Shown in pieces: positions 41,412-47,255 of a stretch of DNA of 47,893 bases. Below the pieces are notes generated by a model. That model was not told the origin of the DNA and did no database searches. It saw only the letters and a list, made by a program, of their open reading frames with translations. The DNA is from Gammaproteobacteria bacterium (lineage in GTDB: Bacteria > Pseudomonadota > Gammaproteobacteria > WFUO01). Within the stretch, counting starts at the first letter, position 1, and the number at the start of each line of letters is the position of its first letter. Position numbers and translations under genes: made by a program. The stretch is from positions 1-47,893 of the forward strand of contig WFUO01000047.1 of NCBI GenBank assembly GCA_015484945.1, written 5' to 3'.

Positions 41412-43976
41412 TCAGCCTGCCTTTTCGACCGGAAACTGAACCTCGGCGGCCTTGTTGCGGTATTCCTCGATCTGGTCGAAATTGAGATAGCGGTAGATCT
41501 CTGCGGCCATCGGCTCCAGCCCCCTGACATACTCGAGATACTCCTCGGGCGTGGGCAGATAACCCAGGCGCGCGGTCACGGCGCTGAGTTCAGCCGAGCC
41601 GAGATAGACATTGGCATCCTTGCCCATGCGGTTCGGGAAATTGCGTGTCGAAGTCGAGACAACGGTCGCACCATCAGCCACACGCGCCTGGTTGCCCATG
41701 CACAATGAACAGCCCGGCACTTCGGTACGCGCGCCAGCCTTTCCAAAGATGGCGTAGTAGCCCTCCTCTATCAGCTGATGCTCATCCATGCGGGTTGGCG
41801 GCACGATCCACAGCCGCGTGGGAATACCGCTCACACCCTCCAGTACCTTCCCGGCGGCCCGGTAGTGACCGATATTGGTCATGCACGAACCGATGAACAC
41901 CTCATCGACCTTCGCGCCAGCAACCTCGGACAGCGGCTTGATGTCGTCCGGGTCATTGGGGCAGGCCAGTAACGGCTCGGTGATCTCGTTGAGGTCGATT
42001 TCGATGATCTCGGCGTACTCGGCATCCGCATCGGCCTCGAGCAGTTGCGGGTCGGCGATCCACTGCTGCATCGCCTCGATACGACGCGCCAGGGTGCGCT
42101 TGTCGCCATAGCCGTTGGCGATCATCCACGTCAGCAGGGTGATGTTGGATCTGAGAAACTCGATGATCGGTTCCTTGTCCAGCTTCACGGTACAACCGTT
42201 GGCCGAACGCTCGGCCGAGGCATCCGACAGTTCGAAGGCCTGCTCCACCTTGAGATGCTCCAGCCCCTCGATCTCCAGTACACGCCCGGAAAACACGTTC
42301 TTCTTGCCCGCCTTCTCGATGGTCAGCAAACCGCGCTGTATGGCCACATAGGGTATGGCGTTGACCAGGTCTCGAAGTGTAATACCCGGCTGCATGGTGC
42401 CCTTGAAGCGCACCAGTACCGATTCTGGCATGTCCAGCGGCATTACTCCAAGCGCAGCGGCAAAGGCCACCAGGCCGGAGCCTGCCGGAAAACTGATGCC
42501 GATTGGAAAACGTGTATGCGAGTCACCACCCGTGCCGACCGTATCGGGCAGAATCATGCGGTTGAGCCAGGAATGGATCACACCGTCACCCGGACGCAGT
42601 GAGACCCCGCCGCGGGTCATGATGAATTCCGGCAACTCGTGCTGGAGCTTGATGTCCACCGGCTTGGGATAGGCGGCCGTATGACAGAAGCTCTGCATCA
42701 CCAGGTCGGCAGAAAATCCCAGACAGGCCAGCTCCTTGAGCTCGTCACGCGTCATCGCACCGGTGGTGTCCTGGGAACCGACAGTAGTCATGCGAGGCTC
42801 GCAATAGGTGCCTGGGCGAACACCCTCAACGCCACAGGCCTTGCCGACGATCTTCTGCGCCAGCGTGAATCCCCTGCCGCTGTCGGCTGGCGCCACCGGG
42901 CGCAGGAACACATCCGATGGTGGCATACCCAGCGCCTCGCGGGTCTTGTCGGTCAACGAGCGGCCGATGATCAACGGAATTCGGCCGCCGGCACGCACCT
43001 CGTCCGGCATGGTGCTGGGCCTGAGCTCGAAGGTGCTGATGGTCTCACCGGCCTCGTTGGTGATCCGGCCTTCGTACGGGTGGATATGGATCACATCGCC
43101 GGTCTGCATGGCCGAGACATCGCATTCTATCGGCAGGGCGCCGGAATCCTCCGCGGTATTGAAGAAGATCGGCGCGATCTTGCCGCCAAGGATCACCCCG
43201 CCCTGACGCTTGTTGGGCACGTACGGTATGTCGTGGCCCATGTGCCAGAGTACCGAGTTGATGGCCGACTTGCGCGAGGAACCGGTGCCGACCACGTCGC
43301 CGACATAGGCCAGCGGATGGCCCTTCTCCTTCAACGCCTCGATGGTTTCAAGCGCATCGGGCATCTTGTTCATGAGCATGGCCTTGGCATGCAAGGGGAT
43401 GTCGGGACGGCTCCAGGCCTCGGATGCCGGTGACAGATCATCGGTATTGGTCTCGCCCGGTACCTTGAACACCGTGACGGTGATTTTCCCGGGCAGCGGT
43501 TCACGGCTGGTGAACCACTCTGCCTCGGCCCAGCTCTCCACCACCTTCCTGGCCCAGTCGTTGCTGTCAGCCTTCTCGACGACATCGTGATAGGCATCGA
43601 AGATCAACAGGGTGTGTGACAGGGCCTGCGCGGCGATGGGCGCGAGATCATTATTATCCAGCAGACCGATCAGCGGCTGGATGTTGTAGCCACCCAGCAT
43701 GGTGCCCAGCAGTTCGGTTGCCCTGCGCGGGTCGATCAAGGGTGATTCGGCCACGCCATTGGCGATATCGCTGAGAAAACCGGCCTTGACATAGGCGGCC
43801 TGGTCCACGCCCGGCGGTACCCGGTGAATCAGCAGATCCAGCAGCTCCTGCCCGCTGCCGGCGGGCGGGTTCTTCAGCAGCTCGACCAGCTCGGCGGTCT
43901 GGCCTGCGTCCAGCGGCAGCGGCGGCAGGCCCTCGGCGGCGCGTTCTTCGACATGTCTGTGGTAGTTTTCCAGCAC
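41412..43976 (-). CDS. acnB: Aconitate hydratase B
   Basis: AcnB interconverts citrate and isocitrate in the TCA cycle through a labile [4Fe-4S] cluster. The 854-residue protein begins [20 protein letters not shown], with a GTG start at 43976 and AAGG upstream. The N-terminal HEAT-like domain (about 1-160) is specific to AcnB. Cluster cysteines are visible in [15 protein letters not shown] and [11 protein letters not shown]. With icd (34281) it supplies the TCA steps in the window. Confidence 0.97.
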
Positions 43977-45625
<1,649 letters not shown>

Positions 45626-45698
45626 AAAACCGGACACAAAATCATTATTTTGTGACACAGTCCACATTGTTGAGCATTTCGATGTGGATAATGGGATC

Positions 45699-45814
45699 CA
45701 GATGGTGTGAACGGCTCGCTTATTCCCTCCCGCTTTGCTTCCCCAAGGGTGTCGTTCAAACTATCCCGACCCGGACTGCATTACCCCCATCCCGTGCAGT
45801 CCGGGTCTTTTTTT
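45699..45814 (+). ncRNA. Candidate structured small RNA, copy 1
   Basis: This non-coding element between purB and roxA has a close relative 270 bp downstream. A GATAAT -10-like box (45687-45692) suggests a start near 45699. Helix P1 pairs TGAACG (45708-45713) with CGTTCA (45753-45758) and encloses C-rich segments (CCCTCCC and the conserved GCTTCCCCAAG). A strong terminator hairpin with a C-rich loop follows. The matching helix in copy 2 shows a compensatory A-U to G-C change. It may be a trans-acting sRNA that pairs with G-rich Shine-Dalgarno regions through its C-rich loops; this is inference. No Rfam family is recognised. Confidence 0.65.
45769..45814 (+). terminator. Intrinsic terminator of candidate sRNA copy 1
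   Basis: ACCCGGACTGCA and TGCAGTCCGGGT form a perfect 12-bp stem around a 14-nt loop (TTACCCCCATCCCG), followed by C and seven Ts (45808-45814). This is the strongest intrinsic terminator in the window. Confidence 0.88.
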
Positions 45815-45930
45815 GCGCCATCAGCCTGCCGGACCTGGGCAATCGTCACGAACATGGAACATAATGGATACGCCTTCCCTGAACCTGATGGAAGCCTGCG
45901 AGTGCGCCGCGCTGCATCCCTTCATCGGCA

Positions 45931-45942
45931 AAAACCGGTTTT
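45931..45942. promoter_or_regulatory. Palindrome upstream of candidate sRNA copy 2
   Basis: AAAACCGGTTTT is a perfect 12-bp palindrome ending 19 bp before a perfect -10 box (45962-45967). It overlaps where a -35 box would be, so it may be an operator. Confidence 0.4.
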
Positions 45943-45961
45943 CTCCAAACAGACCGCATCG

Positions 45962-45967
45962 TATAAT
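45962..45967 (+). promoter_or_regulatory. -10 box of candidate sRNA copy 2 / roxA leader
   Basis: A perfect TATAAT aligns with the GATAAT in front of copy 1, so the promoter element was duplicated with the RNA. No clear -35 is seen. The predicted start is about 45974. Confidence 0.5.
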
Positions 45968-45973
45968 GAGGGC

Positions 45974-46080
45974 GTAGTGTGGATGGCTCGCTTGATCTCA
46001 AGCATGCTTCCCCAAGTATGTCGTCCATGCTATGCGAGCCCGGGTCGATATACCCCCCCATCCCGTACGGCCCGGGCTCA
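45974..46080 (+). ncRNA. Candidate structured small RNA or roxA leader, copy 2
   Basis: This diverged copy of the 45699-45814 element shares GTGTGRAYGGCTCGCTT, GCTTCCCCAAG, TGTCGTYCA and the loop TACCCCC..ATCCCGT. P1 pairs TGGATG (45980-45985) with CGTCCA (46022-46027). Two small hairpins lie inside: CTTG-atct-CAAG and CATGCTT-CCCC-AAGTATG, the latter exposing CCCC. The terminal hairpin AGCCCGGG/CCCGGGCT (46037-46044, 46071-46078) lacks a U-tract, so transcription may read into roxA, 33 bp downstream. GGCTCGC (45985-45991) can also pair with GCGAGCC (46034-46040), as an alternative helix or pseudoknot. Confidence 0.6.
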
Positions 46081-46112
46081 CCCCTGATCGCGGACCGGTA
46101 CCCGGAACATAC

Positions 46113-47255
46113 ATGGGCAGCGTATCATCCACATTCCCAAACTGGCTGCCACAAGATTTTCTTGATGAATTCTGGCAACGCCGACCCCTGCTGATACGTC
46201 AGGCCTTACCCGGCTATTGTCCGCCACTGGATGGCGATGAACTCGCCGGCCTGGCCTGTGAAGAAAACGTGGAATCACGCATCGTCCTCGAAAAGAACGG
46301 ACAACACCCCTGGCAGGTGCTTCATGGCCCGTTTCAGGAACAGGATTTCACCCGTCTCCCGGCAACCCACTGGACCCTGCTGGTGCAGGATGTGGACAAA
46401 CACGATGCCGATGTCGCCGCACTGCTGAAGTATTTCCGCTTCATACCCGATTGGCGTATCGACGACATCATGATCAGCTATGCCGCGCCGGGCGGCTCGG
46501 TCGGGCCGCATACCGATCAATACGATGTCTTTCTCCTGCAGGCCAGTGGCCGTAGGCGCTGGATGATCGACAGCAGCTGTCGCTCACAGCGGCTGATGGA
46601 TGGCCTGGACTTGCGCATTCTGGCCGAGTTCGACCCAGACCGGGAATGGCTGCTGGAGCCCGGTGATCTGCTGTATCTGCCACCTGGCGTGCCGCACCAT
46701 GGCATTGCCGAAGATCCATGCATGACCATCTCGATCGGCTTCCGCGCCCCTACCGACAATGAATTGCTGAGCGCGGTCATTGGCCGTCATCTTGAGCAAC
46801 ATGAGGAACGTTTCCATACTGATCCCGGCCTGCCCTGCCAGCAACGTGCCAGCGAGATACACCCACATGCACTATCGGCCTTGCGCTCACTGGTCACAGA
46901 AGCCATGCAAATCGACGATACAACAATGAATCGCTATCTGTGTGAATGGCTCAGTGAAACAAAGCCTGGTATTGTGATCACCGAACCCGAAGAACCACTG
47001 GACTACGAGCCCTTCATCCGGCGCCTGCAACATGAGGGATTGGTTCGGGCATTGGGTATTCGGGTTTTGTGCGCCAGGCAAAATGACACATGGCATCTTT
47101 ACATCGATGGCGAGACCTTCCCTGATGTCGATGCCTCGATCATCGACAGGATCGACAAGGGCCTGCTGCTGGATGCCGCCCACTGCCCGCCAGACGCCGG
47201 AGAACTGCTGTACCGGCTTTATCGCAGGGGATACTATGTCTTTTCAACAACGTGA
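46113..47255 (+). CDS. roxA: Ribosomal protein L16 arginine hydroxylase (RoxA/YcfD)
   Basis: RoxA is a JmjC-type cupin Fe(II)/2-oxoglutarate oxygenase that hydroxylates Arg81 of ribosomal protein L16. The ATG at 46113 (MGSVSSTFPNWLPQDFLDEF) gives 380 residues; the in-frame extension from 46032 reads through the RNA element and is unlikely. Iron ligands are H133 and D135 (GPHTDQYDVF) with a histidine in PPGVPHHGIAED (about 195-196). FWQRRPLLIRQA is the typical N-terminus. The Shine-Dalgarno is weak (GGAA). Its end overlaps the acetyltransferase gene. Confidence 0.93.
   Translation: MGSVSSTFPNWLPQDFLDEFWQRRPLLIRQALPGYCPPLDGDELAGLACEENVESRIVLEKNGQHPWQVLHGPFQEQDFTRLPATHWTLLVQDVDKHDADVAALLKYFRFIPDWRIDDIMISYAAPGGSVGPHTDQYDVFLLQASGRRRWMIDSSCRSQRLMDGLDLRILAEFDPDREWLLEPGDLLYLPPGVPHHGIAEDPCMTISIGFRAPTDNELLSAVIGRHLEQHEERFHTDPGLPCQQRASEIHPHALSALRSLVTEAMQIDDTTMNRYLCEWLSETKPGIVITEPEEPLDYEPFIRRLQHEGLVRALGIRVLCARQNDTWHLYIDGETFPDVDASIIDRIDKGLLLDAAHCPPDAGELLYRLYRRGYYVFSTT

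Follow-up and report, generated by a model that had tools for sequence, protein, structure and literature searches.

A candidate family of small RNAs with C-rich loops and a predicted CRP-type promoter, encoded downstream of purB in Gammaproteobacteria

Introduction

CyaR of enterobacteria is a CRP-activated small RNA (sRNA) acting on ribosome-binding regions, and the Helicobacter RNA RepG uses the C/U-rich loop of its terminator to bind a G-repeat located in the leader of an mRNA. A third system is sX13 of Xanthomonas, an RNA of about 115 nt with three stem-loops and apical C-rich loops, encoded downstream of polA (PMC3771888). It is presented there as Hfq-independent and is reported only from Xanthomonadaceae. 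Its loops target G-rich motifs in the vicinity of start codons, and their pairing with G-rich start regions has been shown (PMC3771888). Searches of the open-access literature turned up no C-rich sRNA of the kind described below that is linked to purB or controlled by CRP.

The RNA presented here comes from a window of 47,893 nucleotides (the whole stretch of DNA analysed, contig WFUO01000047.1 of a gammaproteobacterium), in which a first-pass annotation had pointed out two non-coding copies between purB and roxA. It resembles CyaR in its predicted CRP-controlled promoter, but differs from it in genomic neighbourhood and sequence, and no CyaR match was obtained in the Rfam scans. The loop mode of RepG is the same as the one proposed below for the second hairpin of the purB-linked RNA; the organism and the sequence are however unrelated. 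With sX13 the RNA shares a similar size, stable stem-loops, apical C-rich loops and a housekeeping-gene neighbour. However, sX13 has three stem-loops and a polA locus, whereas the purB-linked RNA has a two-hairpin consensus and lies at purB (36/65 matches). No CRP site of the purB-RNA kind is described for sX13 in the passages of PMC3771888 considered here, and the window RNA has no Rfam match to sX13.

Results and discussion

Two copies of the RNA lie between purB and roxA

The purB gene (44261..45625, + strand), whose position upstream of the RNA is conserved among relatives, has its stop at 45625, and the ATG of roxA (ycfD-like, 46113..47255, + strand), located downstream here and in only some relatives, is at 46113. 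Two non-coding two-hairpin RNA copies, both on the + strand, are found between them. Copy 1 is a predicted transcript extending from 45699 to 45814, in which a first hairpin with a large C-rich loop, ATTCCCTCCCGCTTTGCTTCCCC (45701..45765), is followed by a terminator hairpin with the loop TACCCCCATCCC and then T7 (45768..45814). Copy 2 (45974..46085) also has a second hairpin with a C-rich loop (46036..46079, + strand), which is not a canonical terminator because the sequence following it, ACCCCTGATC, has no U-tract. Folding places small extra hairpins inside the first hairpin of this copy, and the roxA ATG is 33 nt past the second hairpin. The non-coding copies are thereby present where the first-pass annotation had put them, together with the sequence blocks it described. 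Its claim of C-rich terminal hairpins holds for both copies, including the strong hairpin and T7 of copy 1, but does not extend to a canonical terminator in copy 2.

A coding origin was rejected, as the differences in loop length among the RNAs are not multiples of three and an ATG in copy 1 reaches a stop after two codons. An 854-aa ORF on the - strand of the window (41412-43976), lying before purB, reads like aconitase B.

The structure is conserved among relatives

On the + strand, copy 1 folds with -47.5 kcal/mol (z -6.50) and copy 2 with -52.1 kcal/mol (z -6.74), and in neither case was any of 200 dinucleotide shuffles as good; the - strands of the two copies fold less well (z -2.6 and -1.7, respectively). 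The outer helix is compensated, with TGAACG/CGTTCA in copy 1 and TGGATG/CGTCCA in copy 2. This compensatory change, on which the first-pass annotation had based its case, is confirmed and can be followed through 26 relatives. In a structural alignment of 26 members, double changes occur in 24 of the 26 base pairs, the observed values being reached by none of 500 shuffles, and 90.5% of the cells are paired as compared with about 37% for slid partners. Since this alignment is fitted to the structure of the covariance model, an arm-swap test was also run, in which the native arms of hairpin 1 gave a mean of -16.6 kcal/mol and those swapped between members -8.6 kcal/mol (0/10,000 permutations as low), the arms still being cut out by the model's alignment. 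When folded singly and without alignment, all 47 RNAs had a z below -2, with a mean of -5.7. Both the alignment and the single folds give two hairpins as the consensus architecture. Selection on RNA structure, which had been suggested from the two window copies, is thus strongly supported by the double changes, arm swaps and single folds of the relatives.

The RNA follows purB in many families

A DNA search of 94 genomes of the same class, each from a different family, returned clear relatives in three of them (G055, G001 and G088). The RNA follows purB in G055 and G001, while in G088 it adjoins roxA, in divergent orientation, near a contig end. The first covariance model (R1), made from these sequences (five in all), was run on 369 genomes and gave matches in 33 of them at E 0.01. 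The rebuilt model (R2), made from 26 members, gave matches in 59 of the 369 at E 0.05, including weak ones and unrelated C-rich terminators. The window copies score 123.9 (R1) and 109.1 (R2) bits for copy 1, and 98.1 (R1) and 71.2 (R2) bits for copy 2. Among 65 located matches, 36 are 43-509 nt downstream of purB and on the same strand as purB, a synteny which emerged although nothing about purB is built into the covariance model. When members that are linked to purB or bear a CRP site are taken together with a few at contig ends, the RNA is carried by 35 of the 369 sampled genomes of the class, in 21 families. In a phylum-wide search of 299 genomes, strong matches were confined to the source genome itself, and the weak matches elsewhere were not counted as members.

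Some model matches were set aside. Three of them (L057, L058 and L060) resemble ordinary terminators, and seven others without the purB/CRP signature (L055, L056, L059, L061 and L082-L084) were not counted as members.

A CRP-type promoter accompanies the RNA

A CRP site centred at approximately -40.5 to -41.5 is in the class II position. Upstream of copy 1 there is a CRP-type site, TGTGACACAGTCCACA (45651..45666, + strand), which has 9 of 10 consensus bases. Relative to the predicted start (approximately 45699) its centre is at about -40.5, and it is followed by a GATAAT -10 box at 45687..45692 (+ strand). The first-pass annotation had missed this site. A site of this type, with 8-10 of 10 consensus bases, lies upstream of 33 of the 36 purB-linked copies. 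The distance from its centre to the -10 box is 28-29 nt in all but two copies and 31 nt in those two, a spacing slightly favoured by the method, as the -10 was the best-matching box at a distance of 26-33 nt, and ties were resolved toward 29. With the -10 box at -12 to -7, the centre falls at about -40.5 to -41.5, so that a predicted site at the class II position is present in 33/36 purB-linked copies. It is absent for window copy 2, which has a TATAAT box (45962..45967, + strand) with a weak -35 and no CRP site (best 5/10).

The source genome codes for a CRP orthologue with 64% identity to E. coli CRP and a canonical recognition helix, SREMVGR. At E 1e-40, CRP is found in 33 of the 35 carriers compared with 189 of the 369 genomes overall (Fisher 1e-8, phylogeny not corrected). 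The two carriers without an orthologue at this threshold, G001 and G352, are both fragmented MAGs, and the missing CRP may therefore reflect incompleteness.

For the reverse control, 60 downstream flanks of purB were used, nearly all from genomes in which no RNA had been found after purB. The unfiltered model detected the RNA in two more of them, G064 and G081 (three tandem copies), and a model-free scan for a CRP site and -10 box picked these same two, with a C-rich hairpin. Its other picks were two chance-like matches, in genomes without CRP and with no C-rich hairpin. Apart from these two, the CRP-type promoter was missing from the flanks without the RNA in this control, which indicates that it accompanies the RNA and not purB.

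Four copies away from purB (L042, L044, L052 and L086) keep the CRP site. One genome, G036, holds one of them (L042) as well as a purB-linked copy (L079), which suggests dispersal out of the home locus.

Tandem arrays and the divergence of copy 2

Tandem arrays also occur elsewhere, with three copies each in G022 and G169 (which belong to one family), three in G081, and two each in G075, G071 and G337. The arrays of 2-3 copies after purB (L040/L041, L054, L073, L087 and L117) thus come from five families other than that of the window, and most of their copies have a CRP-type site of their own. Window copy 2 departs from most copies: it has no CRP site, its TATAAT box comes with a poor -35, and no U-tract follows its second hairpin. 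It may be in decay or may now be part of the roxA leader. The recurrent arrays would form a natural series in which divergence of control among sRNA paralogues can be followed.

Loops and possible targets

Every one of the 47 RNAs folded carries a C tract in a hairpin loop, and C makes up 52% and G 4% of their enclosed unpaired bases. The stems vary freely among members while the loops remain C-rich. Loops rich in C and poor in G are expected for loop pairing with a G-rich sequence and not for a CsrA sponge, and the idea of a C-rich-loop sRNA put forward in the first-pass annotation fits these conserved tracts and the near absence of G. By analogy with sX13, we infer that the loops could act on G-rich Shine-Dalgarno regions. 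A target-pairing scan of a small set of 38 start regions gave nothing above shuffles (mean z +0.2). The genome has an hfq gene (8e-30), which together with the U-tailed terminator of copy 1 (T7) would suit an Hfq-dependent trans-acting sRNA; copy 2 has no U-tail.

Known families and alternative explanations

Neither the window RNA nor 20 related loci reached the gathering score of any family in Rfam 15, in keeping with the first-pass annotation, which had not recognised a known family. Likenesses to anti-hemB (RF02837; 18.5 bits for the window RNA, gathering score 49.5) and Atu_C10 (RF02497; 19.9 bits, gathering score 60) consist of a terminator hairpin with a C-rich loop. These sub-threshold similarities raise the question of whether the RNA is a diverged branch of a known C-rich sRNA family, be it one of these two or the polA-locus RNAs (sX13, ErsA/Pseudomon-1). 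The loops are of the same kind, and the refined model weakly matches C-rich RNAs beside polA or an engB-like gene in other genomes (L055, L056, L082 and L083); for one of these there is a weak match to Pseudomon-1/ErsA as well. We nevertheless find such descent improbable, since the Rfam scores are far below gathering, the locus is a different one, the polA-locus RNAs lack a CRP site at the spacing seen in the purB-linked copies (best 5-7 of 10), and sX13 is reported only from Xanthomonadaceae (PMC3771888). A CsrA/RsmA-sequestering RNA could likewise be a small RNA with several hairpins, and CRP influences CsrB/CsrC in enterics (PMC7591399), but there is no GGA in the hairpin loops of the 47 RNAs, and this loop composition contradicts sequestration, to which we give hardly any credence.

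An element acting in cis on a neighbour only, whether it serves roxA as 5' leader or attenuator or supplies purB with its 3' UTR and terminator, would agree with the position between these genes. Copy 2, which has no U-tract and lies 33 nt before the roxA ATG, could itself be a roxA leader. This explanation is somewhat more plausible than a diverged known family, but still unlikely: the RNA has its own conserved promoter after purB, a strong terminator ends copy 1, roxA is within reach downstream in a minority of loci only and is divergent in G088, and L042, L044, L052 and L086 keep the CRP site though they are not beside purB.

The RNA is thus probably a member of a new family of CRP-activated, trans-acting sRNAs with C-rich loops, encoded after purB and repressing mRNAs via their G-rich start regions. 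The family is supported computationally by structure, covariation, synteny and CRP-type promoter architecture. Our best reading, made by analogy, is that it would work like sX13 and CyaR, no relation to either being established.

Proposed mode of action

The trans-acting RNAs of this family would be about 100-120 nt long and transcribed from just downstream of purB. CRP-cAMP would bind at about -41 and recruit RNA polymerase in the class II manner. The transcript would then form two hairpins, one at the 5' end and one as terminator, and each would expose unpaired C-rich loop bases for pairing with G-rich or Shine-Dalgarno segments of mRNAs, probably with the help of Hfq, and this pairing would block translation of the targets when cAMP is high. 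The source genome has the gene in duplicate, copy 1 being the CRP-type gene and copy 2, without CRP site and U-tract, now standing in what may be the roxA leader region.

A wider proposal, which we advance tentatively and with rather less than even confidence, is that the conserved module of CRP and sRNA at purB, in at least 21 families, extends the cAMP response to translation through C-rich loops resembling an anti-Shine-Dalgarno sequence, that in some lineages it has grown into arrays of 2-3 copies diverging in control, and that window copy 2 has become an mRNA leader carrying sRNA loops.

Three points go beyond the first-pass annotation: the promoter of CRP type, the broad occurrence of the RNA next to purB, and the changes that copy 2 shows in its promoter and terminator. 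If the sRNA reading is true, this is a widespread regulatory RNA, absent from Rfam, which has a fixed genomic address and cAMP-CRP as predicted inducer, so that any cultured carrier would serve for testing whether it is expressed and what it does. CRP-linked riboregulation would then reach past the enteric examples (CyaR and Spot 42) into many poorly studied families.

A second C-rich RNA

A second C-rich two-hairpin RNA was seen in other families (L055, L056, L082 and L083, and perhaps also L059, L061 and L084), with the motif AACCCGGTTTCCCCAAGCCGGGT... CCCCGG...CTTCCCCCC...CCGGGGTTTTTTTT in L055, L056 and L059. It lies beside polA in L055, L056 and L083 and beside an engB-like gene in L055 and L082, and its only Rfam matches are sub-threshold (anti-hemB and Pseudomon-1/ErsA). 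The polA/engB-side RNAs (L055, L056, L082 and L083) appear to be a separate C-rich class without a CRP site, which agrees with the polA-locus sRNAs discussed in PMC3771888.
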